DNA from: Algibacter lectus | GTDB taxonomy: Bacteria > Bacteroidota > Bacteroidia > Flavobacteriales > Flavobacteriaceae | Assembly: GCF_900112395.1 (NCBI RefSeq) | Contig: NZ_FOLN01000007.1 | Span: 124,001-188,000, forward strand | Reading direction: 5' to 3' | DNA: 64,000 nt | Shown here: one piece after another, positions 4,476 through 31,460 of the stretch | How the letters are laid out: the number at the start of each line of letters is the position of its first letter | Position numbering within the stretch: position 1 is the stretch's first letter | The notes under the pieces: model-generated | Told to the model about the DNA's origin: nothing | The model's input: only the letters and a program-made list of their open reading frames with translations | The model's database searches: none | Made by a program: the position numbers and the translations under genes

Positions 4476-4499
4476 TAGCTTTTAAAACTAAAACCAACC

Positions 4500-4523: not shown

Positions 4524-4632
4524 ATAATTAATTTGTCGAATTGTGATAATGCATCAATAATTTGGCAAATTAATTTTTGTTGAAATTAACGCTTGTTAAA
4601 CTTCAACACCAACTAACCACTAAACTAACTTT

Positions 4633-7469: not shown

Positions 7470-7485
7470 AAATACTGAATTTAAA

Positions 7486-8280: not shown

Positions 8281-8285
8281 TTTTA

Positions 8286-11436: not shown

Positions 11437-11543
11437 GTTACGGGTAAATAACCTCCATATTTTATTTTAGCTTGAATACAAATTAGTAAAAGTTTTGTAT
11501 TCAATAAATTAATAACATTTAGTTGTTGAAATTTCAAATAAAA

Positions 11544-14500: not shown

Positions 14501-15743
14501 CACCAATAGTGGAGGTGATATAACCATAACAATTAATAAAATTAATACTGGTAGTGGTAATTCTAACTTTTTGAAGTTGGGTAAAGCTAAATCTACCGAG
14601 TATGTTGAAATTATAGTTGAAGATACTGGTGTGGGCTTAGATAAGGAGCAAATGCGCCGTATTTTTTCGAGGTTCTATAATTTGGATGCTTCAAAAGCCG
14701 GTACAGGTATTGGGTTAAACTTTACCAAAGGTTTAGTGGAATTACATGGTGGTGAAATAGATGTAGAGAGTAAGCATAAAAAAGGAACCAAGTTTATTGT
14801 TAAACTACCTTTAAATATCGATGCTAAGCCAGATGATGTTGAGAATGTTAAAAATGAATTTTTAATAAACTCAATGAAGGCTGTTGAATATGATATGTTA
14901 ATCTCGAACGATCATTTACCAAATGTAAAACCAGATTCGGTAGACGATTACAATGGTGACGATTCTAATAAACCAATACTGCTTATTGTTGAAGATAATA
15001 AGGAACTCCGTGTGCATTTAAGTAGTGATTTAAGAGATCAATACATTATTAAAGAAGCTGTTAATGGTGTCGATGGGTTAAAGAAAGTGCATAAATATTT
15101 GCCAGATTTGGTTATAAGTGATGTTATGATGCCTAAAATGGATGGTTTCGAAATGTGTAATTCTATAAAATCCGATTTAGAAACCTGCCATATACCTGTA
15201 ATTTTATTAACTGCTAAAACCTTGGTTGAGGATAGAATAGAGGGTTACGAGCACGGTGCAGACGGTTATATATCAAAACCTTTTGTTACCGATGTATTGA
15301 AAGCTAGAATTAATAACTTGCTTGAGGCGAAGAAAAGATTGCGACAACGTTTTTCTGAAATTGGAGGTATATTCCCGTCTAGTGAGGTAACCTCTAATAA
15401 TCTAGACGAAGCATTTCTTGATAAAGCCACCAAAGTTATTATTGAAAATATAAGTGATATAGATTTTAAACAAGGCGATTTACTGGCCGAAATGGGGATT
15501 GGTCGATCTCAGTTCTATAAAAAAATAAATACGTTAACAGGAAGTAACCCAAGCAACTTTATTAGGACAATACGATTGCGTTATGCTGCTGAGTTGTTGG
15601 TAAAAAACAATTATTCTATAAAAGAGGTATCTCACATGTCCGGTTTTAATTCCACAGCATATTTTAGTAAAACCTTTAAGGAATTGTTTGATGTAACACC
15701 AAGTCAGTTTATTGAACAAAAGGAAAAAGAAGGAGAAATGTAA
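11544..15743 (+). CDS. Hybrid two-component system regulator (HTCS), complete
   Basis: Membrane sensor-regulator of 1399 residues from the ATG at 11544; a TTG seven codons upstream would only add residues before the signal peptide MNFKNYFIALFCLLT. It has about 14 periplasmic beta-propeller repeats (for example LWVGTNNGLNLFNK, IWISAYNGGLNLFN), a Y_Y_Y domain (about bases 13740-13970), a membrane helix (about 13990-14060), kinase H-box VSHEFRTP (about 14130), ATPase motifs EDTGVGLD and GTGIGLNF, receiver domain with VEDNKEL and SDVMMP, and an AraC-type DNA-binding domain ending near 15715. It lies directly upstream of the FAS1-SusCD array on the same strand, separated by a terminator and a 470-bp leader, so it is the most likely activator of that array. 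Confidence 0.95.
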   Translation: MNFKNYFIALFCLLTNIIVGQKNNIKFENLDTFSGLSSSTCTEIFQDKAGFLWFGTIDGLNRYNGYEFEIFRSVLNDNTSISNNRINAIEEDNEGNLWVGTNNGLNLFNKQTNKFIRIKLYKQLSLSNSSQKIINDLLYDSINNTLWVATNIGVIKIQLYDYNTNEDNFKFSYYISDQSNLKSIDNNKVNVLLKDKDNTIWAGTNGQHLNRYNRKNDNFDRVLIDKKESYELNHITKKVFIDADGDFWIGNDLSNLILWNTKNNTFKHVSLVDKSVPIYDIYQDKTGLFWVSTDVFGLYLFKKENDDVEMQRHIVNNFSDPFSLPNNKPTKIFEDRKGIFWIGSYDVGVSKLDPSSYSFQHYYYKANKADGLSQKTIQSVLQDSKERIWISAYNGGLNLFNEEENSFEHFSSFSNDTSALSSNKILYTFEDHAGFIWVCTLDGGVNKFNPETGKSEVFLHDANNTKSIGQSSVWSGVEDAEHRIWFALRNEGLSLYNPKTKQFKNYKSTYDSGNSLLSNSIISTFIDSKKRLFIGTELGLNVVELKALGEFIPNDIDFIPVNVSGLVEVRVSTITEDHGNNIWVGSDSGVYKLDANLNLVQSYSSQNGLPNNLVVGIKEDDNFNIWITTKSGLSLLNPKTHQIVNYNTHDGLQGAEFQTQSIEKTTDGRIIVGGLNGFNIFNPDDIAIPAAVDLKPQISKLKLNNRVVFAGDSIHDRVLLNKGISETKDLTLKYKENYVSLEFVALYFDNPEQVKYAYRMQGLDSDFINLGSNRVVNLSNLESGTYKFEVKATINGQWDTAKTTFLNIKILPPMWRSWWAYLIYIIIGALIIRFLMYYYELKVQEEQEHELDQMKLQFFVNVSHEFRTPLTLILNPVDKILANFSDNPEVVKTSALSIQRSARRLLHLVNQLLDYRKMDVGMAPLQLEKGDVVKFSEDIFSLFKDLAFKKEINYNFISTSDKIVSLFDFDKVEKIITNLISNAIKFTNSGGDITITINKINTGSGNSNFLKLGKAKSTEYVEIIVEDTGVGLDKEQMRRIFSRFYNLDASKAGTGIGLNFTKGLVELHGGEIDVESKHKKGTKFIVKLPLNIDAKPDDVENVKNEFLINSMKAVEYDMLISNDHLPNVKPDSVDDYNGDDSNKPILLIVEDNKELRVHLSSDLRDQYIIKEAVNGVDGLKKVHKYLPDLVISDVMMPKMDGFEMCNSIKSDLETCHIPVILLTAKTLVEDRIEGYEHGADGYISKPFVTDVLKARINNLLEAKKRLRQRFSEIGGIFPSSEVTSNNLDEAFLDKATKVIIENISDIDFKQGDLLAEMGIGRSQFYKKINTLTGSNPSNFIRTIRLRYAAELLVKNNYSIKEVSHMSGFNSTAYFSKTFKELFDVTPSQFIEQKEKEGEM

Positions 15744-15772
15744 GCGTTTCGAATTTATAAATTAATAATGTG

Positions 15773-15812
15773 AAATCTCAGATTAAAACTTAATCTGAGA
15801 TTTTTTTTTTTT
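15773..15812 (+). terminator. Terminator after HTCS gene
   Basis: AAATCTCAGATTAA (15773-15786) and TTAATCTGAGATTT (15790-15803) form a 14-bp perfect stem with a 3-nt loop, followed by a run of 12 T residues. Confidence 0.9.
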
Positions 15813-16282
15813 GTTAAAAACAATAGAATATGCTTACTTATATTAGGAGGTAAAAGGTGAGGTAATTGCTCATTGTTTTATATGGTCTGTAATGCTAAAA
15901 TTTAAGTATTTTATTAGTTTGTTAAACGTTTAAGCAAAATTAAATACTGTATTCTGTTAATTTGATAATTATGCTTATGGTTTTTTAAGAATAGGTTAAT
16001 GTGGTAAAAATAATACTGTAGGATTTTACATAAAGCCTAGTGTTTATAGGGGTAAAACGGTATAAATGAGCAATAATTTATCTCTAAATAGCTATAATTT
16101 ATATACTTAAAGGGCATTGTTTTATAAGTTTGCATTAACAAATAGTTAACATTAATTAACAAATTTTAGTATTTGCTCTTTAATTGCTGTTTCTCTTTAA
16201 TTTAAGCTAAAACCAAGTTTAAATGTATTAACCGAACCTAATTAAATAACTAAACAATAATTCTAAATTAACTACAATTAAT
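15813..16282 (+). promoter_or_regulatory. Long regulatory leader of FAS1-SusCD array
   Basis: No gene is visible in these 470 bp. A candidate -7 element TAAGTTTG lies at 16125-16132, without a clear -33 TTG at standard distance, as expected for an activator-dependent promoter. Directly after it are two copies of TTAACAAAT (16135-16143 and 16156-16164) around a GTTAAC palindrome. GGTAAAA occurs at 16003 and 16051. One of these repeats may be the HTCS binding site; the transcript would have a leader of roughly 140 nt. Confidence 0.4.
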
Positions 16283-18598
16283 ATGGTACAAAAAATGAAG
16301 CATAGAAATGGTATAATTATATTATTTATAATTATGGCCACTTTTGGGTGTAAGCCCGACCCGCTTGAGTATGCACGTCCCGACAATTTGGCTGGTACAA
16401 TTTACCAACAATTAGAGTCCATGGGGAATTTTACTTATTACTTACAGGCATTAGATCAAACGGCTTACAAAGAACCATTGGTAAAAGGTGGTTCTTGGAC
16501 AGTTTTTGCTCCAACAGATGAGGCTTTCGAGGCTTATATGACTGCTGAAGGAATATCTAGTATAGAATCTATTTCACCAGAAAAAATATTAGATATCGTA
16601 GAGTATTCAATTATAATTGATGGTTGGAATACTACAACGTTAACTTATTTTCCAAATCGATTTTATTTAGGTCAAAGTTTTAGACGTAGAACGCAATACC
16701 AAAGACCTAATAGAACGTATAATACCGATACTTTACAGCATATATTAGATTGGGATAAGTTAGAGCCTGGTCAATATGTGGTAGAAGAAAGTAATGGTAG
16801 ATTAAAAACAACCAATTATTTTATTCAATCTTATTTAGATACTTGGGATGTTCAGCATTCGGATTACGAGTTTATGTTTCCAGATGAAACTTTCAATGAT
16901 GGCGAAATGAAAGTATTTGGTGCTAATGTTACAGAACAAAATATTGTAGCAGAAAATGGGATAATTTATGCTTTAGATAAAGTGTTTGAGCCTAAAAAGA
17001 GCATGTACGAAAACCTTTCTTCTCCGGAGTATGGCGATAAGTATTCTGGTTTTAAAAGAATATTGGAACGTTTTGCTTATTTGAGATACAATAGAGACGA
17101 GCTAAATGAGGAAACAGGAGAAACAGAGCAAATTTACAGATTTGTGTTTTCTACAGGAATAGAAAATGATTATCTACCCTTTAATGTTGCAGATGAGAAT
17201 TATGCAACTAATATCGATGGAACTCTAGCACAAGCTTGGGGGTTATTAGTGCCAACAAACGAAGCTTTAGAAAGTTATTTAACTAGTAATAGTATTTTGG
17301 GAGAGTTTTATAGCTCTTATGATGAAATGCCTTTAGATGTTTTAGGGAAATTTATATCACCTTTTTTCTTTAATGATTATTGGGATATATGTCCAAGTTA
17401 TTTTGGTCAAAGTTATGATACAAGCTTAGGTTTAGTAGATTATAAAGCGGAAGATGTTGTCGACAAAAAGTTTTGTAGCAATGGTTTCTTTGTAGGGGTA
17501 AATACAGTGTATACAAATAATAGTTTTGGAACAATAATGGGGCCTTTATTATTAGACCCTAATTACTCTATAATGCTTCAAGCAGTTCAAGATCTTAGAA
17601 TAGATACAGCTTTACAAAGTAATGCAGTGCGTTTTTCTATTTTAGGTGTAAGAAACGATCAGTTTGTCGATATTGCAGATCCAAACAGTGCAACACGTAG
17701 AATAACAGTACGTACAGATCTTGATTCTTATGATCCTACTGATGTGTCTGTAATTTATATGGATGTAGAAGGTGATCCTGTAGGAGCTAATAACCGTACG
17801 TATCCAGATCCAGATGCAACGTCTCCAAGTGCAGCAGATATAGCTTATGTTAGAAAAACAATAGCTGATATTGTTCTTAATCAAATTGTCGATGAGGATA
17901 TAGATTTTAATGCTAACAATTACTACCAAGCAAGAAGTGGCGAGTTTATCTACGCATCTGCTGGTAATTTAGCACAAGGAGGTGGAGATATTCAGGATAT
18001 GGAATCTGCTCAGGTTGAGAATATCCAAGTTACAGATAATGGAAACTTTTATGAAATGAGTGCTATTATAGATATGCCGTTAAATTTCACTTACGGTACT
18101 TTAGTAGAGAACTCTGCGAGCTTTTCATCTTTTATAGAGGTATTAGAAAGTGCAGATGCATTAATTACCATTGTAGGTTCGGAAGATAAATTAATTAACT
18201 TCTTAAACTTACAAAGAACGTTTACATTATTTGCGCCTAACAACAGTGCTGTTGCACAAGCTATTAGTGATGGTGTTATTGTAGACCCTAGCATAGTAAA
18301 TGGGTTGGATGATTTAGATAAGGCTATAGCAAAAAGAGATCTTTTAAACTTTGCTAAAAAGCACTTTATACAACAATCGTTACCTACCGATGGTAAAATC
18401 ACAGGAACTTTTCCTTCTATGTATTATAGTAAAATTGTCGATTTTGCTCCAGTTTACGATCAGTTTTCTGTTGTAAATACAACAACATCTGTTTCTATTA
18501 CAAACGAAGAAACAGGAGATACCGTAACAACTGGTAGTATGACAAATATATTATCAAAGAGAATTATAATACACGAAACGAATAATTATATAAAATAA
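16283..18598 (+). CDS. Large fasciclin (FAS1) repeat lipoprotein
   Basis: A 771-residue outer-membrane lipoprotein: hydrophobic signal and lipobox ending at C23 (FGC), then KPDPLEY. An alternative ATG four codons later would give a shorter signal. It contains about four FAS1-like segments: residues roughly 35-240 (WTVFAPTDEAFEAYM, NGIIYALDKVF), 250-420 (LLVPTNEALESYL), a degenerate one near 430-600, and 600-770 (TFTLFAPNNSAVAQAI). FAS1 domains mediate adhesion or ligand binding. It is the first gene of the array and is followed after 20 bp by a SusC gene. A role as surface glycan-binding or substrate-capturing protein is inferred from position. Confidence 0.85.
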   Translation: MVQKMKHRNGIIILFIIMATFGCKPDPLEYARPDNLAGTIYQQLESMGNFTYYLQALDQTAYKEPLVKGGSWTVFAPTDEAFEAYMTAEGISSIESISPEKILDIVEYSIIIDGWNTTTLTYFPNRFYLGQSFRRRTQYQRPNRTYNTDTLQHILDWDKLEPGQYVVEESNGRLKTTNYFIQSYLDTWDVQHSDYEFMFPDETFNDGEMKVFGANVTEQNIVAENGIIYALDKVFEPKKSMYENLSSPEYGDKYSGFKRILERFAYLRYNRDELNEETGETEQIYRFVFSTGIENDYLPFNVADENYATNIDGTLAQAWGLLVPTNEALESYLTSNSILGEFYSSYDEMPLDVLGKFISPFFFNDYWDICPSYFGQSYDTSLGLVDYKAEDVVDKKFCSNGFFVGVNTVYTNNSFGTIMGPLLLDPNYSIMLQAVQDLRIDTALQSNAVRFSILGVRNDQFVDIADPNSATRRITVRTDLDSYDPTDVSVIYMDVEGDPVGANNRTYPDPDATSPSAADIAYVRKTIADIVLNQIVDEDIDFNANNYYQARSGEFIYASAGNLAQGGGDIQDMESAQVENIQVTDNGNFYEMSAIIDMPLNFTYGTLVENSASFSSFIEVLESADALITIVGSEDKLINFLNLQRTFTLFAPNNSAVAQAISDGVIVDPSIVNGLDDLDKAIAKRDLLNFAKKHFIQQSLPTDGKITGTFPSMYYSKIVDFAPVYDQFSVVNTTTSVSITNEETGDTVTTGSMTNILSKRIIIHETNNYIK

Positions 18599-18618
18599 TA
18601 AAACTAAAAGTTTTTAAT

Positions 18619-21600
18619 ATGAAGGATAAATACAGGTCATATTCATATGTCTTAATGGTAGTTTGTGTATTGTTTTCGGCGTTCAGTATGTCGGCACAAA
18701 CGCAAATAAGCGTATCAGGAACCGTAATCTCAGAATCAGATGGTCAGCCATTAACAGGTGCAACCATTGCAGAGAAAGATAAAAATAATCGTATTATTAA
18801 TGGTGTTGTAGCCGATTTTAATGGTAATTACGCTATTAAAATGCATGATGCTAATAACGTGCTAACCTTTTCTTACATTGGTTTTATTACTAAGGAAATT
18901 ACAGTTGGAGGTAGAACAACAATTGATATAGGATTAAAAGAAGATGTAGCAGAGTTAGATGCTATTATTGTAAGAGGAACAAAAAAAGTATTTACTGGTG
19001 AGTTTGAAATGGATAAGCGAAGAATTGCTACAGCCATGGAAACTATCTCTACCAAAGAAATTAGTGAAACAGCATCATCGGGTATTGTAGATCAATTGCA
19101 AGGTCGATTAAGTGGTGTAGATATTGTAGCTAATTCTGGAGATCCAGGAGCCGGTTTATCTATCCGTATTCGTGGTACATCATCATTAAATGCTTCTTCA
19201 GAACCACTAATTGTTATTAACGGTGTGCCTTTTGAAACACAAATTGATACTGGGTTCGATTTTTCTACAGCCGATGAAGATCAATATGCATCAATGATTG
19301 GGGTATCTCCAGATGATATTTCTGAAATTTCAGTTTTAAAAGATGCAGCAGCAACGGCGCAATATGGGTCGCGTGCAGCAAACGGTGTTTTACTTATTAA
19401 AACAAAACGTGGGGCAAAAGGTAAAGCTAGATTTTCTTATAGTTATAAAGGAAGTACATCTAAGCAACCAGACGGAATACCAATGTTAAATGGAGATCAA
19501 TACTCTACATTAATTAAAGATGAATTAATTGCAACTAATACTAATTTAGCAGATAGTAACCCAATAGCATACAATCCAGATTACGAGTTATACGAGTTGT
19601 ATAATAAAAATGTTAATTGGCTAGATGAAATTACACAAAGAGGGCACACTAATGAGCATTTCTTAAGTGTATCTGGTGGTGGAGAAAAATCATCATACCG
19701 TGTATCTGGAAGTTATAAAAATCAATTAGGGACAACAGTTGGTAGTGCTTTCAAATTATTTACAACACGTGCTATTTTAGATTATAATATTTCAGATAAA
19801 ATTACTATTGCTTCCGAGCTTTCTTATAGCCACGGATCATTAGATCGTTCTTATGCAAAAGATAATAGTTTAGGACAAGCTAACTTAAGATCTTTAGCAT
19901 TGGTAAAAATGCCAAATCAATCTATTTATCAAGTTGACGAAAATGGTAATTTAACCGATCAGTATTTTACACCAGAAAATTCTTTTCAAGGTAATGGTGT
20001 TACTTATTACAACCCAGTTGCAATGGCGAGGTTGTCTAGAAACAATACAGAAAATAATAGAATTACACCGGTTTTTAGATTTAGTTATAAACCTAATAAG
20101 CATTTCGATTTTAGATCTATTATTTCATTTGATATTAATGTAGATAAAAAATCTCAATTTGTACCAGAAGAAGCTATTGGGGCAGCATGGACAAATTCAG
20201 GAGCAAACAGATCAACTTTTGATGATGGTGAGTTTTTTGTAATGCGTACAGATAATAAATTAATTTGGATGCCAGAATTAGGTGAGAAACATTCGTTTTT
20301 ATCAAGTTTTTCTTTTCAAACATTCGAAAAAACAAGTCAAGGATATGTATCTGTTGCTAGTAATAGTCCAACAAGTGATATACAAACACCTATTGCAAAT
20401 ATTAGAATTGAAGGTTCTGGAAATTCTTTAGAATCTACATTCGAGCAAAACACAACGCTTGCAGCCAACTTTGCTTTTAACTATCAGTATTTAGATCGTT
20501 ATATTTTAAGTGGAGGTATTAGATCGGAAGGAAACTCTAAATTTGGTAGTAATTACCGAAATGGTACTTTTCCAAGTGTTGCTGCAAAATGGATTTTATC
20601 TTCAGAGCCTTTTATGGAAAGTGCAGATTTTGTGGACGAAATAGGTATTCGTGCTAGTTATGGTGTAAACGGTAATTCGCCAGGTACAAACTACGGTTCG
20701 TACAATACTTACACAACGTATAACTATACATATTTAGATGAGCCTGCTGTAATACCAAGTAGTATGGAATTAACAGATTTACGTTGGGAAACTGTTATTC
20801 AGAAGAACTTAGGTGTAACCTATTCATTTTTTAATCGTAGAGTTAGTGGTGACTTAGAATTCTATCAAAAAGACACCAAAGATTTATTAACTAAAAACAC
20901 AGCTATACCAACAACTTCTGGTTTTTCTAGAATACCTTATTTAAACTTAGGTGATATTAGTAACCAAGGTATTGAGTTTAGTGTAAGAACCAAAATTATA
21001 GATAATGAAGATTTTGGATTAGATTTTAATTTTAACGTAGCTCGTAATAGAAACGTAGTTAAACGTATTACAGAAGCTCAAGTAGCAGAAGCAGGAAACC
21101 CTTTAACAACTGGACCTGGTGGGTATTTAAAACGAATTCAAGAAGGTAACCCTATTGGTTCTTTTTATGGCTACCGTTATTTAGGCGTATTTAGTTCTCA
21201 AGAAGATTTAGTAGCACGTGATGGTAATGGAGATATTATTTACGATCTTAATGGAGAGCCTAAAAACTTAGTTTTTAATAATGGTAAAGAGTTTCAGCCA
21301 GGTGAAGCCATGTATGAAGATGTTAACAAAGATGGAAATATCAACGAACTAGATGTAGTATACTTAGGAAATGCAAATCCGTTATTATTTGGTGGGTTTG
21401 GACCTAATATTCGTTATAAAAACTTTCAACTTAATGCATTTTTCAACTTTAGATATGATCAGAAATTAATGAATATTGCACGTATGAATACGGAAAGTAT
21501 GGACGATTTTGATAATCAAAGTACAGCGGTTTTAAGACGTTGGAGATTTGAAGGTGATGAAACAGATATACCAAGAGCTATTTTGAATAGCCCTGTTAAT

Positions 21601-21873
21601 ACTTTAGGGTCTGATAGGTTTATGGAAGATGCTTCATTCTTAAGAATGAAATACATTACACTTAGGTATAATTTACCAAAGCCTTTTATTAACAAGTTGA
21701 ATTTTACAAATGCTTCAGTTTATGTTACAGGAACCAATTTATTAACTTTTACCAAGTATTCGGGAGTAGATCCTGAAGGAGGAATTAGTAACGATTGGCA
21801 AGAGTTAGGTTACGATGCGGAACAAACTCCGAGATCGAAACAAATAACCGTAGGTATAAATCTATCATTTTAA
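18619..21873 (+). CDS. SusC-like TonB-dependent outer-membrane receptor (first)
   Basis: Outer-membrane importer of 1084 residues that takes up oligosaccharides using TonB energy, capped by its SusD partner. It has a signal peptide ending near residue 27 (FSMSAQ), a carboxypeptidase-D-like N-terminal domain (about 30-110; SVSGTVISESDGQPLTGAT), a plug domain with IRIRGTSSLN and the SusC signature GSRAANGVLLIKTKRG near 250, and a C-terminal barrel ending in an aromatic residue (INLSF). It is followed by its SusD after 22 bp. The substrate is not readable. Confidence 0.95.
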   Translation: MKDKYRSYSYVLMVVCVLFSAFSMSAQTQISVSGTVISESDGQPLTGATIAEKDKNNRIINGVVADFNGNYAIKMHDANNVLTFSYIGFITKEITVGGRTTIDIGLKEDVAELDAIIVRGTKKVFTGEFEMDKRRIATAMETISTKEISETASSGIVDQLQGRLSGVDIVANSGDPGAGLSIRIRGTSSLNASSEPLIVINGVPFETQIDTGFDFSTADEDQYASMIGVSPDDISEISVLKDAAATAQYGSRAANGVLLIKTKRGAKGKARFSYSYKGSTSKQPDGIPMLNGDQYSTLIKDELIATNTNLADSNPIAYNPDYELYELYNKNVNWLDEITQRGHTNEHFLSVSGGGEKSSYRVSGSYKNQLGTTVGSAFKLFTTRAILDYNISDKITIASELSYSHGSLDRSYAKDNSLGQANLRSLALVKMPNQSIYQVDENGNLTDQYFTPENSFQGNGVTYYNPVAMARLSRNNTENNRITPVFRFSYKPNKHFDFRSIISFDINVDKKSQFVPEEAIGAAWTNSGANRSTFDDGEFFVMRTDNKLIWMPELGEKHSFLSSFSFQTFEKTSQGYVSVASNSPTSDIQTPIANIRIEGSGNSLESTFEQNTTLAANFAFNYQYLDRYILSGGIRSEGNSKFGSNYRNGTFPSVAAKWILSSEPFMESADFVDEIGIRASYGVNGNSPGTNYGSYNTYTTYNYTYLDEPAVIPSSMELTDLRWETVIQKNLGVTYSFFNRRVSGDLEFYQKDTKDLLTKNTAIPTTSGFSRIPYLNLGDISNQGIEFSVRTKIIDNEDFGLDFNFNVARNRNVVKRITEAQVAEAGNPLTTGPGGYLKRIQEGNPIGSFYGYRYLGVFSSQEDLVARDGNGDIIYDLNGEPKNLVFNNGKEFQPGEAMYEDVNKDGNINELDVVYLGNANPLLFGGFGPNIRYKNFQLNAFFNFRYDQKLMNIARMNTESMDDFDNQSTAVLRRWRFEGDETDIPRAILNSPVNTLGSDRFMEDASFLRMKYITLRYNLPKPFINKLNFTNASVYVTGTNLLTFTKYSGVDPEGGISNDWQELGYDAEQTPRSKQITVGINLSF

Positions 21874-21895
21874 ATAGCATTAAAGTTAAGATATT

Positions 21896-23350
21896 ATGAA
21901 AAGACACATAATTAAAATATTTATAATGGTTCCGATGATTTTTGCAACACTATCATCGTGTAGCGATTATCTAGATCTAGAACCAAAAGACAACTTAATT
22001 CAACAAGAATTTTGGAATAATAAAGAGCAAGTAAGTTCTGCAGTAGCTGGGTGTTATGCCTCTATGAATCAATCTGGGTTTACCGATAGAGTATTAAAGT
22101 GGGGAGAACTTAGAGCAGAAATGATGGTTTCTGGTAGTGGAGGTTTAGAGAATATAATGAGAAATTATATGATTCCTTCAGATGGATTAACAAACTGGAG
22201 TAACTTCTATGCTACTATTAACTACTGTAATTTAGTTTTAGAGTTTGCCGATGGCGCTCAGGAGCAAGATAAAACGTTTTCTATAGAAGAATTAAATACA
22301 TTTAAAGCAGAAGCTATTACTATTCGTTCTTTAGCATATTTAATTTTGGTTAAAAACTTTAAAGAGGTGCCGTTAGTATTAACAGCAACATCAACAAACC
22401 AAATCGATTTTTATCCAGCAAAAAATACAGAAGAAGAAATTCTTACTCAAATTATCAATGATTTAACTTTAGCAGTAGAAGATTTAAACTTAGGGTATGC
22501 ACAATCTGCAGCTCATGATAAAGGGAGAATTACAAAAGGAGCAGCGCTTGCTATTCTTGCAGATGCTTATTTATGGAATGAACAGTACACTGAGTGTATT
22601 GACGCCGCACAAGAATTAATAGATTTAGGTCGCTATAGTTTAGTTAATGGTGAAGAGTGGTTTAATAGTATCTTTTTTGAAGGCAACTCAGATGAAGGTA
22701 TTTTCGAACTTCAGTTTAGCGATATTTCAGCAACGCTAAGAAACTCATTCCAAGTAAGTAATCTTAATTATGTAGCATATCAAGGAATTAACGAATTGTA
22801 TAGAGAGTTTCCAGATGATATTCGTGCGCATTTAGGAACGTATGATAGGGAGAATTTTGCAGTTTTTAAATATGCAGGTGTAGATGAAACTGGCGAATAC
22901 CGTGGTAGTGATGAGTATTATAACAATTTTATATTCTATCGTTATGCCGATGTTTTACTTATGCAAGCTGAAGCTTATATTTTATCTGCTGATAAAAAGA
23001 ATTTAGATATGGCTTATCAACTTATTAACGATGTGCATATGCGTGCAGTTTCTGCACCTTTAGGTGTTTCTAGAGACGAGTCTAGTTTATTAAATGCATT
23101 ATTATTAGAACGCCAAAAAGAGTTTGCATTCGAAGGAAAGCGCTGGTACGATTTACTGCGTTTTGCACGTCGTGATAACTTTGCAAATCAAGAACTTATT
23201 TTAAGTTTAGTCGATTTTAAAGCTGGTGCAGATGATTATGAGCAGATTTTGAGTTATTACTCAGATCCAGATTCATACTTTTTACCAATTTATCAAAATG
23301 AAATTAATTTGAATGATAATTTAGTGCAGAATCCATTTTACGAAAACTAA
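21896..23350 (+). CDS. SusD/RagB-like lipoprotein (first)
   Basis: Surface glycan-binding lipoprotein of 484 residues that forms the lid on the preceding SusC barrel. The signal sequence ends at C22 (LSSC), followed by SDYLDLEPKD, the usual SusD beginning. The N-terminal helical SusD repeat region (for example EAITIRSLAYLILVKNF, residues about 140-160) and the C-terminal motif LLLERQKEFAFEGKRWYDLLRF (split: LLLERQKEFAFEG, then KRWYDLLRF) near 400-425 are diagnostic. It is followed after 10 bp by a FAS1 lipoprotein. Confidence 0.95.
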   Translation: MKRHIIKIFIMVPMIFATLSSCSDYLDLEPKDNLIQQEFWNNKEQVSSAVAGCYASMNQSGFTDRVLKWGELRAEMMVSGSGGLENIMRNYMIPSDGLTNWSNFYATINYCNLVLEFADGAQEQDKTFSIEELNTFKAEAITIRSLAYLILVKNFKEVPLVLTATSTNQIDFYPAKNTEEEILTQIINDLTLAVEDLNLGYAQSAAHDKGRITKGAALAILADAYLWNEQYTECIDAAQELIDLGRYSLVNGEEWFNSIFFEGNSDEGIFELQFSDISATLRNSFQVSNLNYVAYQGINELYREFPDDIRAHLGTYDRENFAVFKYAGVDETGEYRGSDEYYNNFIFYRYADVLLMQAEAYILSADKKNLDMAYQLINDVHMRAVSAPLGVSRDESSLLNALLLERQKEFAFEGKRWYDLLRFARRDNFANQELILSLVDFKAGADDYEQILSYYSDPDSYFLPIYQNEINLNDNLVQNPFYEN

Positions 23351-23360
23351 AACTAAACTT

Positions 23361-25013
23361 ATGAAAACTAAAAAAATAATTAATTGGCTTGGAGGGCTTT
23401 GCATGTTTATGCTAATATTAAATAGCTGTAATGATCCTCTTGATGGAACCACCTTTTTTACAACAGATGGTGAAACTACTGATATGACAATTTCAGAGGT
23501 ATTAGAAGCTAACCCAGACAAATTTTCTATGTATGTTGAAATTCTTCAAAAAACAGAATTTTACACCGCATTAAGAAGTTATGGAAGTTATACGTGTTTA
23601 GCACCTACCAATACGGCTATAAAGGCATTCTTAGAAGAGCGCTTTAATGTAAGTACTGTAGCAGAGTTAACTTCGGAAGAGCAAATAGAATTTTTAAAAA
23701 TATTAGTTAAGTTTCATACGCTACCAACGAGTAGAACCACAAGTAGTTTTATAGAAGGGCGATTGGCCGATACAACTTATACTGGAGATTATCTTACAAC
23801 GTCTTACTTATTAGGAGGTGGTATTGCTAATGTGCAGATTAATAAAGAAGTTGGTTTAGATCAATACGATATTCGTACAAATAATGGAACTATACATGCG
23901 CTTACAGGAGTTTTAAACCCTTTTATTGATCCCGTTACTGTTGTAATGGAAAAGGCTGGTAAGCATACTATTTTTATTGAAGCTTTAAAGCAAACCGGAT
24001 ATTATGATATGTTTTCTCAATACTTTAGTGAAACAGGATCAAAGAATAATTTTACAATTTTAGCAGAATCAGATGCTGTTTATGCTGAAGCTGGTATTAA
24101 TTCTTTTCAAGATTTGGCAGATTATATCTCTCCAGGAGATGTAAATTATACAGACGAGCTAAATGAGTTAAATAGGTTTATGGCTTATCATGCAACAGAG
24201 AGTTTCTTGTATTCTGCAGATTTTCCAGAAAACTCTTTTATTAGTACAATACTTCCTAAAAATGCTATAAAATCTTTTAAAACAGATAAAGAGCTTAGAA
24301 TTAACGAAACAGAAACGGGTGTAGATGATACATGGACGTCTTTAATTTCTGAAGACAGCAATTTTCCTGCGAAAAATGGAGTATATCATACCGTAGATAA
24401 ATTATTAACCATATTTATTCCTAAAGCAAAACATGTAATCTTCGATTTTGGAACAGGTTTACCAGAAGTACAAGCCGGTAAAATTGGTTTTAATTCATGG
24501 TTTGATTCTACAGAATTCGAATCGCTTCGGGTTTTTCCAGCAACACGAATTAGAATTTTAAGACAAAGTAGAAATGCTGCTTATGATGCAGGAACTGTAT
24601 TGAATTTAGGTTCTGTAACATGGATTGAGTTTGATACGCCAGTACTTCCTAAAGGGAAATATGAGCTTAGAGTATGTGGAAACCAAGGAAATAATGGTAG
24701 GCCAATATTCCAAACCTATTGGGATGGACAACCTATAGGGTCACAATGGGATATGAGATCTAACCCAAGTGAATTAGGTATAGGATGGCCAGATGAAGAT
24801 TCTCTAGAGTTAAGAGAGCGTGGTTATGTAAGAGGACGTGCTGATATTTTTGATAATAGCGGTAACTCTGCTTACGATTTAGCGAACTGGGCAAGGTTTA
24901 TTGTAATTGATGATTTACTTATGCCAGAACAACAAAGTCACGTATTGCGTTTTGAAACAATACGATCAGGAGGTATTCCTATTGATTATATTGAGTTTGT
25001 ACCGGTTGATTAA
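23361..25013 (+). CDS. FAS1 lipoprotein with C-terminal beta-rich domain (A)
   Basis: A 550-residue lipoprotein with lipobox ending at C23 (LNSC), followed by NDPLDG. Two FAS1-like domains are visible: about residues 40-190 (YTCLAPTNTAIKAFL, NGTIHALTGVLNPF) and 193-355 (FTILAESDAVYAEAG, NGVYHTVDKLL). The last 195 residues are different: AKHVIFDFGTGLPEV, then beta-rich sequence with several tryptophans and aspartates and the ending VLRFETIRSGGIPIDYIEF. This may be a carbohydrate-binding beta-sandwich; I do not recognise the family. It sits where SusE/SusF-like proteins usually sit. Confidence 0.85.
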   Translation: MKTKKIINWLGGLCMFMLILNSCNDPLDGTTFFTTDGETTDMTISEVLEANPDKFSMYVEILQKTEFYTALRSYGSYTCLAPTNTAIKAFLEERFNVSTVAELTSEEQIEFLKILVKFHTLPTSRTTSSFIEGRLADTTYTGDYLTTSYLLGGGIANVQINKEVGLDQYDIRTNNGTIHALTGVLNPFIDPVTVVMEKAGKHTIFIEALKQTGYYDMFSQYFSETGSKNNFTILAESDAVYAEAGINSFQDLADYISPGDVNYTDELNELNRFMAYHATESFLYSADFPENSFISTILPKNAIKSFKTDKELRINETETGVDDTWTSLISEDSNFPAKNGVYHTVDKLLTIFIPKAKHVIFDFGTGLPEVQAGKIGFNSWFDSTEFESLRVFPATRIRILRQSRNAAYDAGTVLNLGSVTWIEFDTPVLPKGKYELRVCGNQGNNGRPIFQTYWDGQPIGSQWDMRSNPSELGIGWPDEDSLELRERGYVRGRADIFDNSGNSAYDLANWARFIVIDDLLMPEQQSHVLRFETIRSGGIPIDYIEFVPVD

Positions 25014-25039
25014 TAAAAATAAATAATAAAGAACTTATA

Positions 25040-26563
25040 ATGAATAATAAAAATAATTTCATAATTAATCTAGGTCGCATATGTGCCGTTCTTGTTATCC
25101 TTGTAGCATTTAGCTGTAAGGAAGATGCCTTGGACGACCATTATGGACAAGAAGATCAAAGGTTAGAATCTAGTATTTTAGAGACGTTAGCTACCGATGC
25201 TAACTATTCAACCTTTTTAGAACTGGTAAAACAAACAGGTTTTGAAGAGTTACTTAGCTCATCGCAAGCTTTTACAGTATGGGCACCAAGTAACGAAGCT
25301 TTAGCATTGGTATCTGCCGATGTATTAAACGATCCAGATGCATTAACACAATTAATAGGAAATCATATTTCTAGATTCTCTTACGGCTCAACCATAAATG
25401 AAAACCCTGTATTTGTAAAAATGCTTAACGATAAATATATAGAGTTTTCTAATGTAGATGGGCAAGTTACTTTTGGTGATGTTGATTTGTTAGAAGCAGA
25501 TTTGCTAACATCAAACGGTATCCTACATAAGGTGTCAAGCGTGTTAAGCGTAAAACCAAATATTTGGGGATTCCTTAATGACAATGTAGAAGAATTTCCG
25601 GTCTTAATGGAATATTTTTCTCAGTATAACGAAGTTCTTTTTGATGAAGCAAAAAGTGTTAAAACAGGAACTAATACATTAGGCCAAACGGTTTACGATT
25701 CTATTTTTAGCGCATCAAATACACAATTTAAAACAATAGGAGATTTAAGTTCTGAAGAAGATCGTTTTACTTTTATAGGTTTAACCGATGATGCTTATAC
25801 AGGGATTTACGATCGTTTTAAAGAGTATTATAAATTTCCAATTGAAGATTCTGTAAAGAGTAATACAGACAGAACAATATTTAGCAACTTAACATTTCCA
25901 GCTTTTGAACAAGCAGATTTAGACGGATCGTTGCTTTTAAATACGGTTGGTAATTTTGTAACGCTAGACGCTAGTTCTATAACGGGTAATGAAGCATTAA
26001 GTAATGGCAATGTGCTTTTAGTTAGTGATTTAAATTATACTCCAGAAAATGTTATGTATAAAATTATTGGATATGAGGTAGAAGATAATAAAAGAAGAAC
26101 TATAGGTGATTTGTCAGACTTTACAGTAGTTCAAAATTTTGATAGAACAGCATCAGGATCATTTACTAATACAGTAAGCTTATTAGCAAATCCAGATGCG
26201 AGTAATAGTAATAATTATTTTGAAGTAGCATTTAGTAATGTGTTATCTGCAAGTTATAATATTCAATTACGATTTACTCCCGTAGGAGCATCTCAAGATA
26301 CTAAGTTGAGGTTTGAGTTTAGCTACACAGATGCTGATAAAAATGTAATTGTAAACGAAATTGGCCCATTAGTAGTAAGTAACCTTGAAGATGGTGTTGT
26401 TACCATTGGTGATACTTATGATATTCCTGTGTTTGTTAATGAGGAGGTTGATAATGAGTACTTTGTGAAGCTTAAAGTTATTGTAGATGTGAGTGAACCA
26501 GAACTACTGTTGTACGATCGTAAGTTTGGTCTAGATTTTATAGCACTAACGCCAGTAGAGTAA
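25040..26563 (+). CDS. FAS1 lipoprotein with C-terminal beta-rich domain (B)
   Basis: A 507-residue lipoprotein with lipobox ending at C26 (AFSC), followed by KEDALDD. KED fits the K-(D/E)2 lipoprotein export signal known from Capnocytophaga, so surface exposure is likely. FAS1-like domains span about residues 40-175 (FTVWAPSNEALALVS, SNGILHKVSSVL) and 178-350 (more degenerate; FTFIGLTDDAYTGIY). The region from about 360 is a separate beta-rich domain (LRFEFSYTDADKNV, VPVFVNEEVDNEYFVKL-like pattern) ending in LDFIALTPVE. It has the same layout as the preceding gene with diverged sequence, suggesting an old duplication. The next gene is SusC after 22 bp. Confidence 0.83.
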   Translation: MNNKNNFIINLGRICAVLVILVAFSCKEDALDDHYGQEDQRLESSILETLATDANYSTFLELVKQTGFEELLSSSQAFTVWAPSNEALALVSADVLNDPDALTQLIGNHISRFSYGSTINENPVFVKMLNDKYIEFSNVDGQVTFGDVDLLEADLLTSNGILHKVSSVLSVKPNIWGFLNDNVEEFPVLMEYFSQYNEVLFDEAKSVKTGTNTLGQTVYDSIFSASNTQFKTIGDLSSEEDRFTFIGLTDDAYTGIYDRFKEYYKFPIEDSVKSNTDRTIFSNLTFPAFEQADLDGSLLLNTVGNFVTLDASSITGNEALSNGNVLLVSDLNYTPENVMYKIIGYEVEDNKRRTIGDLSDFTVVQNFDRTASGSFTNTVSLLANPDASNSNNYFEVAFSNVLSASYNIQLRFTPVGASQDTKLRFEFSYTDADKNVIVNEIGPLVVSNLEDGVVTIGDTYDIPVFVNEEVDNEYFVKLKVIVDVSEPELLLYDRKFGLDFIALTPVE

Positions 26564-26585
26564 GTATTTTAACTAAAAAATAAAC

Positions 26586-29500
26586 ATGAATTATCTGATT
26601 ATGATGAAAATAAAAAATACATATTCCCTGCTTTTCATTCTATTTTTCGGAATTATTTTTGCATCGCAAGGACAAGAAAAATCGAATAAAATAGTTACGG
26701 GAACGGTCCTTAACGCTACTAATAAAGAGCCTTTGGCTGGCGTTAATGTACGAGCGGGTAATTTTTCCTCTGTGCTTACAGACGAAAAAGGTACATTCTC
26801 GATAAAAGTTCCAGATGGTAGAGCTACACTTATATTAAGTAGCCAAGAGTTTCAAGATAAAGAGGTTGCCTTAAGAGGAAGATCTAAAATTGAAATTAAA
26901 ATTAATAAAAAGGATTTCAATACGTATTATACAGACGTAAATACACCACTTAGAGCTAAAAGTAACTCATCTGTAGTAGGAGCTATTTCTGTAAGAGAGG
27001 GCAATATTGCTACAGCACGTGAGTCTGCAGCAAATATGATTACGGGTAACGAAGTAAGCGGTATGCGGAGTATTATGCGTTCTGGAATTCCGGGTATTGG
27101 TTCTAATAACTTTATTAGAGGGTACAATACTTTAAACAGTTCTACACAACCTTTAATAGTTGTAGATGGTATGATGATTGAAACAAATACGTTTAATAAT
27201 AATTCTATTATTAGAGGGTATAGTTACGATCCTTTATCAGATATAAACCCAAAGGATATTGCAAATATTACAGTAATTAAAGATGCGGCTTCAATCTACG
27301 GATCTAGAGCTGCAAATGGAGTAATACTTATTGAAACTAATAAAACGGATGATGTTACAACTAAAATAGATTTCTATGCGCAAGCAGGTTTAAATATTTC
27401 TCCGGATAATATTAGAATGATGAATGCAGATCAATACAAAACGTATTTATCTAACCAATTAAATAATTCGGGACTTTATACTAATAGCGAAATAAGTAAT
27501 TTACCTTATTTTAATGAAAGTACATCTTTTCAAGATTATGAAAAATATCATAATTCTACCGATTGGCAAAAACAAGTATTCGATGATAACTATGTTAATG
27601 AGTACTATTTAAAAGTAACCGGTGGTGATGAGATTGCTAAATATGGTTTATCTGTTGGTTATTCTACTAACGGAGGTGTAATTTCTAATTCAGATTTCGA
27701 GCGTTTTACAACACGTTTTAATGCCGATACAAACATTACAGATAGATTATCTTTATCTACAAACTTAAGTGTAAGTTATACAGATAGAAGTTTGTATGAC
27801 GATGGTTTGTTAAGCACATCTCCAATATTTTCAGCGCTTAATAAATCGCCATTTTTGGCACCTTATACAGAGAATGCAGATGGTGTAGTAACCGATGTTT
27901 ATCAAGATGTTGATGATATTGGTGGCTTTAGTAACCCTGTAGTTATTACAGATGTTGCAACGTTTGTTGCAAAAGATTATAATCTTTACGGACAATTAAA
28001 CTTCGGTTATAAAATTTCAGATAAATTAACGTTGAGTTCTTTATCTGGTGTTAATTATATTAAAAACAGACAAAATGTTTTCTTACCAGATTTAGGATTG
28101 TCTGAAGAAACTAACGATTTTGGTGATGCTTTTTATCGTACATCAAAAGTAAGTGTAGAGAGTTTATTTTCTGTTTATAACGATACACGATTAAATTATA
28201 AATTAAACGTTGATAATATTCACGATTTCTCAATAAACTTAGGGGTACGTTACAACCAAAATGATTATGAGAATTCATACTCTATTAGTGGTAACTCTGG
28301 AGACGATCAATTTACATCACTTAATAATGGTAATAGAGATACGTTTGTTACTTCTGGTAATATTGGTAACTGGAAATATGCATCACTTTATGCTAATGCA
28401 GATTATTCGTTTTTAAATAAGTATTTTGTGAGTTACAACTTAGCTTTCGATAGTTCATCTCGTTTTGGAGATGCTAAATCTACCGGTATTTTTCCTGGTC
28501 TAGGAGTGGGGTGGTTAATTTCTTCAGAAAACTTTATGGCTAACAATAATCTTATCGATAAATTAAAACTTAGAGCAAGTTATGGTTTAACAGGTAACGA
28601 TGGTATTGGAAACTACAATGCAGAATCTTACTTTGTGTCTACTAGATTTTTAGAAGGAACAGGACTTATTAATGGTAACATTGCCAAAAGTTCTATCCGT
28701 TGGGAAGAAACAACTAAGGCTAACATAGGTTTAGATTTAGGATTGTTAAACGAACGCGTATCTGTAAACTTAGATTATTTTAACAATGTTACAGATGGTT
28801 TATTAAACCAAACTAGTATTAGCCCAGTTTTTGGTAGTGAAGGGTTTTTGTCTAATGATGGAAAACTAAAAAATAAAGGTTTCGAATTAGGGATTAATGC
28901 ACGTGTTATTAATACAGATAACTTTACTTGGGATGTTGGAGGAAATATTTCTCAATATAAAAATAAGATTATCTCATTACCTGGAGATCAACAGATATAT
29001 GAAATCGCTGGTGTAAACGCCACAATCATTAATAAAGAAGGTAGTGCGTTAGGTTTATTTTACGGTTACAAAACAGATGGTATTTATAACAATGCTACAG
29101 AAGCTTCAAGCGAAGGTTTAAACTGGGTAGATTTTGCAGGGTTCGAACAACCATTTGCAGCAGGTGATGTTCGCTTTGTTAACAGTGATGCTTCTGATAA
29201 CGTGATTAATGAAGACGATCGTGTAGTAATTGGTAATCCTAATCCGGATTTTACAGGTATGGTTTACAATACATTTACATATAAAAATGTATCCTTATCG
29301 GCTATATTTTCATTCAGTCAAGGAAACGATGTTTACAATGCACAACGCTGGCAAACAGAATCTATGTCTGGTTTAGCTAACCAAAGTGAAGCGGTAGCAA
29401 ACCGTTGGACCGTAGCAAACCAAAGCACAAATATACCTCGTGCGGTTTATGGTGATGCTGTTGGTAATTCAAGGTTTTCAGACCGTTGGATAGAAGATGG

Positions 29501-29717
29501 GTCTTACATTCGTTTAAAAACCTTGTCATTATCTTATAGTCCAGACTTTTTTAATGCAACAGTTTTCCTTACAGCAAATAACTTATTTACAATTACAGAT
29601 TATTTAGGGTTCGATCCAGAAGTAAGCTCGTCTCAAACAAGTTATTTACAAGGTATCGATGCAGGTTTAACACCACAATACACTTCAGTTTTAGTTGGAG
29701 TTAGAGTAGGACTATAA
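26586..29717 (+). CDS. SusC-like TonB-dependent outer-membrane receptor (second)
   Basis: Outer-membrane importer of 1043 residues. Signal peptide (an internal Met at residue 6 or 7 may be the real start), carboxypeptidase-D-like domain (about 38-110; VTGTVLNATNKEPLAGV), plug domain with NFIRGYNTLNSSTQPL and the SusC signature YGSRAANGVILIET near 240, and a beta barrel to the C-terminus. It is clearly diverged from the first SusC, for example in a longer, atypical linker before the plug (residues about 110-150), so the two systems probably take different ligands. It is followed by its SusD after 39 bp. Confidence 0.95.
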   Translation: MNYLIMMKIKNTYSLLFILFFGIIFASQGQEKSNKIVTGTVLNATNKEPLAGVNVRAGNFSSVLTDEKGTFSIKVPDGRATLILSSQEFQDKEVALRGRSKIEIKINKKDFNTYYTDVNTPLRAKSNSSVVGAISVREGNIATARESAANMITGNEVSGMRSIMRSGIPGIGSNNFIRGYNTLNSSTQPLIVVDGMMIETNTFNNNSIIRGYSYDPLSDINPKDIANITVIKDAASIYGSRAANGVILIETNKTDDVTTKIDFYAQAGLNISPDNIRMMNADQYKTYLSNQLNNSGLYTNSEISNLPYFNESTSFQDYEKYHNSTDWQKQVFDDNYVNEYYLKVTGGDEIAKYGLSVGYSTNGGVISNSDFERFTTRFNADTNITDRLSLSTNLSVSYTDRSLYDDGLLSTSPIFSALNKSPFLAPYTENADGVVTDVYQDVDDIGGFSNPVVITDVATFVAKDYNLYGQLNFGYKISDKLTLSSLSGVNYIKNRQNVFLPDLGLSEETNDFGDAFYRTSKVSVESLFSVYNDTRLNYKLNVDNIHDFSINLGVRYNQNDYENSYSISGNSGDDQFTSLNNGNRDTFVTSGNIGNWKYASLYANADYSFLNKYFVSYNLAFDSSSRFGDAKSTGIFPGLGVGWLISSENFMANNNLIDKLKLRASYGLTGNDGIGNYNAESYFVSTRFLEGTGLINGNIAKSSIRWEETTKANIGLDLGLLNERVSVNLDYFNNVTDGLLNQTSISPVFGSEGFLSNDGKLKNKGFELGINARVINTDNFTWDVGGNISQYKNKIISLPGDQQIYEIAGVNATIINKEGSALGLFYGYKTDGIYNNATEASSEGLNWVDFAGFEQPFAAGDVRFVNSDASDNVINEDDRVVIGNPNPDFTGMVYNTFTYKNVSLSAIFSFSQGNDVYNAQRWQTESMSGLANQSEAVANRWTVANQSTNIPRAVYGDAVGNSRFSDRWIEDGSYIRLKTLSLSYSPDFFNATVFLTANNLFTITDYLGFDPEVSSSQTSYLQGIDAGLTPQYTSVLVGVRVGL

Positions 29718-29756
29718 TTTTTGTATAATAGATTCAAAATAAAAAAATAGATATAA

Positions 29757-31367
29757 ATGAAACAATATAGAAATATTACGTTCAGCATACTTTTCGGATT
29801 AACGCTTTTAACCTCTTGCGAGAGTTTGTTAGAAGTAGAACCTGAAGAAGTATTGCTTGCCGAGGATTACCTTGGCGACGATCAAATAGATGCTAGATCG
29901 GCATTGTTTGGAGTGCTTTCTCAATTGCAAGGCGTTGTAGGGCAATATGTAGTGCTAGGCGAGTTACGTGCAGATTTAGTAAATGTAAACGCAAACTCTA
30001 TTGATGAGCTTCAAGAAGTTAACAATCACAACATAAGTGAAGATAATAGTTATGCAGATTTAACGACTATGTTTTCTATTATCAATAACTGTAATTTTGC
30101 TTTAGAAGGTATTGATACGGATGCTTACGAAAATCAATTATTAGATGATTATGCTTCTATTTTAAGAATTAGAACATGGGCGCAAATGCAAATTCTAATT
30201 AATTACGGAAAGTTACCATACATTACAAAACCAATTAGAACGAGTGATGAACTGGATGATACTTACCCTTTATTATCAGTAGATCAAGCTTTGGATCAAT
30301 TAATTTCTAATCTAGCTGAGGTTGAAGGTGTAGAGAATGTAACTAAATATGCAGGCTCTTTAGGGTTTTCAATTTTTGACATGATTCCTGATCAAGATAT
30401 TCTTTTGGGTGACTTACATTTATGGAAAGGAAACAATACGCTAGCAGCAACGAGATATAAAGCATTTTTAGATAAAGAGGCTTTACAAGGTGTTTTATAC
30501 TTATCTGGATCTAATTCGGTAACAGTTACAAAATCGGGGGAATCTTACAGTTGGGTAAGCCGTTGGTTAAACATATTCGGAGAAACCGTTAGAACTAGTG
30601 AGGTTATCAATTATGTTGGTTTTAGTGAACAATATAGACAGCCTAACAATAGCTTTACGGTAGTGACAGATCAATTATCGGCGTCATTATCAATTATATA
30701 TAATTGGGCAGATCAATCTGTAGGGTTTGAAGGTGAGCCAAAGATCGAAGGAATAGATACAAGAGTTAGTAGCTCAGTTGATGCTTTTAGTGATTTACTT
30801 CCAATTAAAAAATATCAATACGATTATTTTACATGGAATAGAGCAGCTAAAGTATATTTAAGATATGCAGAGGCTATTAATTACGCAGGACATCCAGAAC
30901 AGGCTTTAGCGATTTTAAATGGTATTTTTAATAATCCTGATGTAGCCCCTGTTGATGCTCCTATTTTTGAAAACGGGGAAGCTTATTTAAATTTTGATAT
31001 AAACACCTATTACGCAACTAATTCTAGTGATGAGCCAATTTCTGGATACTTAGGGGTTCGTGGTCGTGTAGGTATGGCTCCGGTAGGTTTAGATATCGAT
31101 GTAACAAGTGCTAGTGCTATCGAGCAAGTAGGTGCGTTAATTCTTAATGAGGCCGCTTTAGAGTTGGCTTTTGAAGGAAACAGATGGGAAGATTTAGTTC
31201 GTTTTTCACGTAGAAGTAACGATCCAACAATATTAGCTAATGCTGTTGCAAATAAGTTTGTAACTGCAGGAGAAAGTGGAGCAGCAGCAACTGTAGGTCA
31301 AAAATTATTAAATTCAGAAAACTGGTATTTACCATTAAGTATTCCTGACAACTTTGTGTCGCAGTAA
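29757..31367 (+). CDS. SusD/RagB-like lipoprotein (second)
   Basis: A 536-residue surface lipoprotein with lipobox ending at C21 (LTSC), followed by ESLLEVEPEE, a SusD-like start. The conserved C-terminal motif is present as ALELAFEGNRWEDLVRFSRR (about residues 470-490). Partner of the preceding SusC. It is the last gene of the array and is followed by a strong terminator. Confidence 0.94.
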   Translation: MKQYRNITFSILFGLTLLTSCESLLEVEPEEVLLAEDYLGDDQIDARSALFGVLSQLQGVVGQYVVLGELRADLVNVNANSIDELQEVNNHNISEDNSYADLTTMFSIINNCNFALEGIDTDAYENQLLDDYASILRIRTWAQMQILINYGKLPYITKPIRTSDELDDTYPLLSVDQALDQLISNLAEVEGVENVTKYAGSLGFSIFDMIPDQDILLGDLHLWKGNNTLAATRYKAFLDKEALQGVLYLSGSNSVTVTKSGESYSWVSRWLNIFGETVRTSEVINYVGFSEQYRQPNNSFTVVTDQLSASLSIIYNWADQSVGFEGEPKIEGIDTRVSSSVDAFSDLLPIKKYQYDYFTWNRAAKVYLRYAEAINYAGHPEQALAILNGIFNNPDVAPVDAPIFENGEAYLNFDINTYYATNSSDEPISGYLGVRGRVGMAPVGLDIDVTSASAIEQVGALILNEAALELAFEGNRWEDLVRFSRRSNDPTILANAVANKFVTAGESGAAATVGQKLLNSENWYLPLSIPDNFVSQ

Positions 31368-31423: not shown

Positions 31424-31460
31424 AAAAACTCCAAGTGCTATACTTGGAGTTTTTGTTTTT
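31424..31460 (+). terminator. Terminator of FAS1-SusCD array
   Basis: AAAAACTCCAAG (31424-31435) pairs with CTTGGAGTTTTT (31443-31454), 7-nt loop, with a T-rich tail. Confidence 0.88.

Follow-up and report, generated by a model that had tools for sequence, protein, structure and literature searches.

A conserved double-SusCD cassette of Bacteroidota with FAS1 lipoproteins as probable surface glycan-binding proteins

The window analysed here is a stretch of 64,000 nucleotides from Algibacter lectus (contig C12, positions 124001-188000, of a 4.8 Mb Flavobacteriaceae genome). Between positions 16283 and 31367 it carries an array of seven + strand genes, which encode two SusC/SusD (SusCD) transporter pairs and three fasciclin (FAS1) lipoproteins, here called FAS1a, FAS1b and FAS1c. 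Our analysis makes it likely that this array encodes a conserved module for the uptake of acidic, uronate-containing polysaccharide fragments across the outer membrane, with the FAS1 lipoproteins as its surface glycan-binding proteins (SGBPs).

The initial annotation of this DNA had read the array as FAS1, SusC, SusD, FAS1, FAS1, SusC, SusD with short gaps, and the open reading frames (ORFs) and the Pfam and NCBIfam matches bear this out. Every gene starts with ATG, and the spacers measure, in order, 20, 22, 10, 26, 22 and 39 bp. The Fasciclin model PF02469 matches genes 1, 4 and 5 above its curated cut-off (E 1e-20, 6e-22 and 2e-16), the NCBIfam SusC model TIGR04056 matches genes 2 and 6, and the SusD model PF07980 matches genes 3 and 7. 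Adjacent susC and susD homologues, the core of a polysaccharide utilization locus (PUL), are therefore present twice. The array and its bordering elements, all on the + strand, are as follows.

11523-15743, +, hybrid two-component system (HTCS) gene with Reg_prop propeller, Y_Y_Y, HisKA, HATPase_c, response regulator and AraC-type helix-turn-helix domains (Pfam); putative activator of the array
15772-15804, +, terminator-like hairpin after the HTCS gene, 15 pairs and a T run (read from sequence)
16283-18598, +, FAS1a lipoprotein, 771 aa, FAS1 repeats only, lipobox Cys23 (Pfam, alignment)
18619-21873, +, SusC1, TonB-dependent outer-membrane transporter (TIGR04056, E 5e-221)
21896-23350, +, SusD1 lipoprotein (PF07980/PF14322)
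23361-25013, +, FAS1b lipoprotein, 550 aa, two FAS1 domains and a C-terminal beta-sandwich resembling a carbohydrate-binding module (CBM) (Pfam, predicted model)
24426-25010, +, CBM-like beta-sandwich of FAS1b, residues 356-550, DUF5108-related (structure matches of the predicted model)
25040-26563, +, FAS1c lipoprotein, 507 aa, two FAS1 domains and a C-terminal CBM-like beta-sandwich (Pfam, predicted model)
26057-26560, +, CBM-like beta-sandwich of FAS1c, residues 340-507 (structure matches of the predicted model)
26586-29717, +, SusC2, TonB-dependent transporter, 28% identical to SusC1 (TIGR04056, E 7e-189)
29757-31367, +, SusD2 lipoprotein (PF07980, E 4e-12)
31424-31454, +, terminator-like hairpin with a T run at the array end, before a convergent groEL (read from sequence)

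An HTCS leader and a strong terminator had also been annotated, and both are present. Since the HTCS gene has a terminator-like hairpin of its own, however, the array is probably a separate transcript, which would start in the 15805-16282 gap and end at the 31424-31454 hairpin. An HTCS gene stands directly upstream of the cassette in seven further loci as well (L071-L073, L079, L083, L084 and L091). The statement that no enzyme is present holds for the seven array genes, none of which encodes a carbohydrate-active enzyme, but not for their neighbourhood, where uronate-catabolism genes and a cluster of glycoside hydrolase (GH) and esterase genes (GH78-like, GH115, GH92, GH29, GH3 and SASA) lie upstream.

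The order of the seven genes is widely conserved. A FAS1b search of 199 Flavobacteriaceae genomes found close relatives (59-69% identity) in three genera and distant ones (~30%) in three others, and all six carry the complete order, with FAS1b duplicated in one. The initial annotation had proposed a survey of FAS1-susCD linkage across Bacteroidota; scanning the genomes of 84,980 species with a FAS1b alignment yielded 63 loci. The exact order on one strand is found in 49 of them, the same order with FAS1b doubled in three (L076, L077, L080) and the same order with one or more split ORFs in four (L111, L122, L126, L131), so that 56 of the 63 keep it overall, a fraction that is conditional on FAS1b, through which these loci were found, just as the fractions given below for loci found through FAS1c are conditional on that gene. 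Of the remaining seven, L099 is cut by a contig end, and in L078, L082, L106, L117, L129 and L133 FAS1b stands in another setting. So frequent a recurrence, in 56 of 63 related loci, goes far beyond what chance would produce. Its hosts include Algibacter, Mariniflexile, Flavivirga, Tamlana, Flavicella, Polaribacter, Flavobacterium, Leeuwenhoekiella and Gramella, as well as Pedobacter, Mucilaginibacter, Sphingobacterium, Chitinophaga, Niastella, Fibrella, Geofilum and Prevotella.

A FAS1c profile matched 104 of 151 genomes of a Bacteroidaceae sample, with up to 11 matches per genome. All 20 Prevotella-like loci that were read at full length have both SusCD pairs, with FAS1c between SusD1 and SusC2. 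Fourteen of them are complete septets. In three no FAS1b was called, in one FAS1b has moved to the front of the cassette, and one breaks off at FAS1a; the last holds three FAS1b genes in a row. The cassettes fall into two clades, clade I with the window's copy and clade II, which are 23-41% identical to each other, depending on the protein. Over 51 loci, the pairwise distances of the seven proteins correlate with r values of 0.93-0.98, and within clade II of at least 0.94. The cassette is inherited as a unit, and it has probably been transferred as one.

Copy number and integrity vary in places. In Mariniflexile spp. (L076, L077, L078, L080, L082), FAS1b is duplicated in the cassette and extra copies lie outside it, beside GH88-like, HTCS and sulfatase genes. 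One Prevotella-like genome (G697, L189-L195) holds at least seven septet copies on different contigs, and another (G640) adds copies L196-L197. Two loci of Niabella (L131, L126) and that of Geofilum rubicundum (L122) have ORFs split in several places, being either decaying copies or sequencing errors. As to the origin of the septet, SusD1 and SusD2 are homologous, and the two SusC proteins (28% identity) are an old, diverged pair, a divergence that fits different ligands, as in the two receptors for different parts of one substrate of the initial annotation, without showing them. Duplication of a single triplet was considered as a source of the septet and rejected: in spite of the homology within the SusC and SusD pairs, FAS1b and FAS1c have C-terminal domains without profile similarity, and in that region they do not seem to be simple copies of each other.

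The three FAS1 proteins are predicted lipoproteins. The lipobox Cys is invariant in all three family alignments (A5, A6, A7). In Bacteroidota lipoproteins, acidic residues soon after this Cys act as a surface-export signal; here, the stretch beyond Cys+1 contains a mean of 2.1-2.5 acidic residues per 8 positions, which amounts to a resemblance to that signal. The AlphaFold models of FAS1b and FAS1c (mean predicted local distance difference test scores of 85 and 86) combine two FAS1 domains with a beta-sandwich at the C-terminus. In FAS1a, the only matches are to FAS1, in three Pfam stretches, and the alignment suggests about four such domains. The SusE and SusF Pfam models match none of the three proteins at E values up to 1, and among solved structures only generic FAS1 proteins were found, with none from close relatives.

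Structure comparison separates the two parts of FAS1b and FAS1c. The FAS1 parts (FAS1b residues ~23-353, Z 18-19; FAS1c residues 38-336, Z ~20-21) have TGFBIp and periostin as their best solved matches. The C-terminal domains of the predicted models, on the other hand, have the beta-sandwich fold of CBM35-, CBM6- and CBM84-type modules. For FAS1b residues 356-550, the top solved matches are domain 763-902 of a Paenibacillus xanthan lyase (6f2p, Z 13.7) and MiXBM (7ehg, Z 13.6), followed at Z 9.6-10.6 by CBM6 and CBM35 entries, which include the glucuronic acid-bound CBM35 4qb2 and the unsaturated galacturonic acid-bound CBM35 2w47. FAS1c residues 340-507 match the same xanthan lyase (6f2p, Z 11.6) and CBM22, CBM4, CBM35, CBM6 and CBM61 entries at Z ~10-10.5. 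A Z score of ~10 is moderate for a beta-sandwich, and 13.7 is clearer. The uncharacterised family DUF5108 (PF17133) matches the C-terminal domain in 18 of 45 FAS1b relatives, at best with E 1e-7, and the window's FAS1b with E 0.036 only; the profile is too narrow for a census, matching in 3 of 296 genomes. FAS1b lies near this family, to which the CBM-like fold would give a candidate role. The sequence matches of FAS1c are to FAS1 only. Profiles detect no relationship between the two C-terminal domains, so FAS1b and FAS1c may differ in what they bind.

As the C-terminal beta-sandwich is nearest to CBM structures, the FAS1 domains look like a stalk or adaptor, and the predicted C-terminal module is more likely than FAS1 itself to be the sugar-binding part. 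This alters the initial annotation, which placed the FAS1 lipoproteins in the position of binding proteins and proposed that FAS1 had been recruited for glycan capture. The first part stands, as these are lipoproteins at the SGBP position, tied to two SusCD pairs throughout the phylum and set in glycan-degrading neighbourhoods. The second gives way to a different division of labour, for the models that it had called for show the FAS1 pair and, in addition, a separate CBM-like domain. It is still conceivable, if unlikely, that the FAS1 domains themselves bind a glycan or glycoconjugate and that the beta-sandwiches are structural. Indeed, FAS1 is the sole part common to the three lipoproteins, FAS1a consists of nothing else, and FAS1 proteins are described with several interaction surfaces, the mammalian ones as binding both protein and carbohydrate components of the matrix (PMC6032426). 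Against this stand the CBM-like domains of FAS1b and FAS1c, which are retained across both clades, and a FAS1-CBM96-cadherin protein of the same genome that repeats the plan of a stalk plus a CBM.

The genes that accompany the cassette bear on its substrate. Over the whole set of cassettes, the genes in the immediate flanks include those for GH88/105, GH106, GH28, GH2, SGNH esterases, sulfatases, DUF4861 and the rhamnogalacturonan lyase of polysaccharide lyase family 11 (PL11, PF21348). Every one of the 22 clade II genomes tested has PL11, and in 13 of these it lies within 35 kb of a cassette, where 0.9 would be expected (P ~1e-14; expectation from genome lengths and copy numbers under random placement). 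In view of this linkage and of the flanking enzymes, the most plausible role of the clade II cassette is in the use of rhamnogalacturonan I (RG-I). In clade I, a KduI/KduD/DUF4861 set is found near the cassette in five genomes and a GH88-like gene, belonging to one cluster, in six; GH78-like, GH29 and sulfatase genes also recur, and some flanks hold heparinase II/III-like lyases, GH97 and GH95. These genes point to a glycan that contains uronate, rhamnose and fucose and is perhaps sulfated; no single named polysaccharide fits.

The enzyme linkage also bears on two other accounts of the array. We consider it improbable that the FAS1 lipoproteins are adhesins for algal or plant surfaces or for other cells, merely co-transcribed with the importers, despite FAS1 being best known from adhesion proteins and TGFBIp and periostin being the top solved matches. 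FAS1b and FAS1c are locked between SusD1 and SusC2 and co-diverge tightly with the transporters over deep distances, and such strict order and co-divergence are what the parts of one uptake machine should show; the linkage to PL11 and other polysaccharide-degrading genes points to nutrition. Scarcely more credible, and if anything slightly less so, is the import of a non-glycan or protein-linked substrate (a peptide or glycoprotein) by pairs resembling the peptide-importing RagAB-type SusCD homologues, which would suit the Prevotella-like copies without enzymes alongside but not the CBM-like domains, the HTCS regulation or the linkage to PL11, GH88, GH106 and KduI.

Several findings nevertheless weigh against the glycan-uptake module proposed here, in addition to the conditional nature of the order fractions. 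PL11 was found in none of ten clade I genomes, the window's own included, so that by the PL11 test the substrate of this clade is not RG-I. CBM-like folds are common beta-sandwiches, and Z scores of 10-14 from predicted models show a fold, not a function; no Pfam CBM family matches any FAS1b or FAS1c relative (A5 or A6 members) by sequence, and FAS1a has no CBM-like part at all. Several Prevotella-like copies lie among housekeeping genes with no carbohydrate-active enzyme close by. Finally, the parallel with the RG-I locus of Bacteroides thetaiotaomicron, described below, is one of gene position only.

In the uptake module that we favour, the two SusCD pairs would be the importers. FAS1b and FAS1c would be exposed at the cell surface, where an N-terminal lipid would anchor the tandem FAS1 stalk and the C-terminal CBM-like domain would hold the glycan over the transporters; from there, polymer or long oligosaccharides would be passed on to SusD1/SusC1 and SusD2/SusC2. 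FAS1a, the longer all-FAS1 protein, could serve as a scaffold or extension of the assembly, and the HTCS encoded upstream would activate the module upon sensing a breakdown product. Surface and periplasmic enzymes would be supplied by neighbouring or distant clusters: RG-I lyases in the PL11-linked clade, and enzymes for a glycan of uronate, rhamnose and fucose in the window's clade. The constant retention of two SusCD pairs may reflect either different oligosaccharides or a joint complex. A more far-reaching version, which we regard as doubtful, though less so than any of the alternatives above, makes the septet a distinct uptake machine, in which the FAS1 lipoproteins join the two transporters in one complex, their CBM-like domains are presented to one polymer and the transporters cooperate obligately; it would rank among the commonest unrecognised PUL cores of Bacteroidota, and DUF5108 would then represent a new family of CBMs.

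The closest known plan is that of the RG-I locus of B. thetaiotaomicron (BT4145-BT4183), where the SusCD pairs BT4164/65 and BT4168/69 bracket BT4166-67, BT4167 is an RG-I-binding SGBP and an RG-I lyase adjoins the core BT4164-BT4169 (PMC8002723). The PL11-linked copies of the cassette share this plan and substrate class, and clade II possesses the lyase that marks that locus. The window's copy differs in belonging to a clade without PL11 and in its extra leading FAS1 gene. RG-I was considered as the substrate of this copy and is rejected for now, PL11 being absent from this genome and nine clade relatives. Neither DUF5108 nor FAS1 gave a match in one Bacteroides control genome.

Like the Sus-type SGBPs (SusE/SusF, SGBP-A/B), the array proteins are lipoproteins encoded beside susCD with a multi-domain stalk and a C-terminal carbohydrate-binding module, the latter predicted here; the stalk is immunoglobulin-like in the former and made of FAS1 domains in the array, where FAS1a also lacks a CBM-like domain. 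TGFBIp and periostin share the tandem FAS1 domains of FAS1b and FAS1c, but they belong to the animal matrix and have neither a CBM nor a lipid anchor nor transporter partners. While SusCD loci and SGBPs are well known, what appears to be new is the proposed FAS1 stalk in a phylum-wide, fixed, double-SusCD cassette. Our search for FAS1 or fasciclin in PULs found no open-access paper describing such a cassette, an absence that is weak as subscription papers were not covered. SGBPs are hard to recognise, having no common sequence. If the proposed role is true, hundreds of 'fasciclin domain' and DUF5108 proteins would gain a role together, bacterial FAS1 would gain a non-adhesion function as a stalk for glycan capture, and there would be a handle on why some loci constantly keep two SusCD transporters. 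The cassette could also serve as a genomic marker for the uptake of pectin-like and other uronate-containing glycans.

FAS1 genes also occur outside the cassette. The window's genome has 12 FAS1 matches in six genes, three of which belong to the array. The first of the others (L014:7059-8504, on contig C25, ~774 kb) encodes the lipoprotein with FAS1, CBM96 and Cadherin_3 domains mentioned above. As in the array, FAS1 is combined here with a carbohydrate-binding module directly behind a SusC-SusD pair; unlike the array, the system has one SusCD pair, one FAS1 domain and an amino-sugar setting (GH20/NagB), and it lies outside the septet family. It is a second, independent FAS1-plus-CBM arrangement. 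The other two genes encode a lipoprotein with two FAS1 domains, which is flanked by GH106 and GH78 rhamnosidases and has a sulfatase-like gene nearby (L015), and a three-FAS1 protein adjoining clpX (L016). At ten further Flavobacteriaceae loci, FAS1 proteins lie apart from SusCD, mostly near mnmA, pyrG and yidC (gene names from sequence). A distinct FAS1 lipoprotein family (L051-L059) occupies this last setting in many Flavobacteriaceae and is unrelated to SusCD. The initial annotation had taken FAS1 genes unlinked to susCD elsewhere as evidence against its proposal; the housekeeping-type family is indeed unlinked, whereas the cassette families are linked, and at least two FAS1 populations exist, a housekeeping type and a PUL type.

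The genes upstream of the array in the window encode LacI, a phosphomannose-isomerase-like protein, KduI, a KduD-like SDR, DUF4861, an SSS transporter, myo-inositol oxygenase (MIOX) and a second HTCS. The uronate-related genes among them are located as follows.

3597-4475, +, MIOX, whose product is glucuronate (PF05153, E 2e-112)
6294-9128, -, uronate catabolism genes: DUF4861 (6294-7469), KduD-like SDR (7486-8280) and KduI (8286-9128) (Pfam)

Farther upstream lie genes for a metallophosphoesterase, GH115, a SASA esterase, GH3, GH29, GH92 and a GH115-like protein, a SusC/SusD pair, DUF1080, a GH78-like rhamnosidase, a SASA esterase and two Gfo/Idh/MocA-like oxidoreductases (labels from sequence). 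At 3597-6210, MIOX adjoins the SSS transporter and HTCS genes inside this glycan locus, which suggests that glucuronate made from inositol enters the same Kdu pathway.

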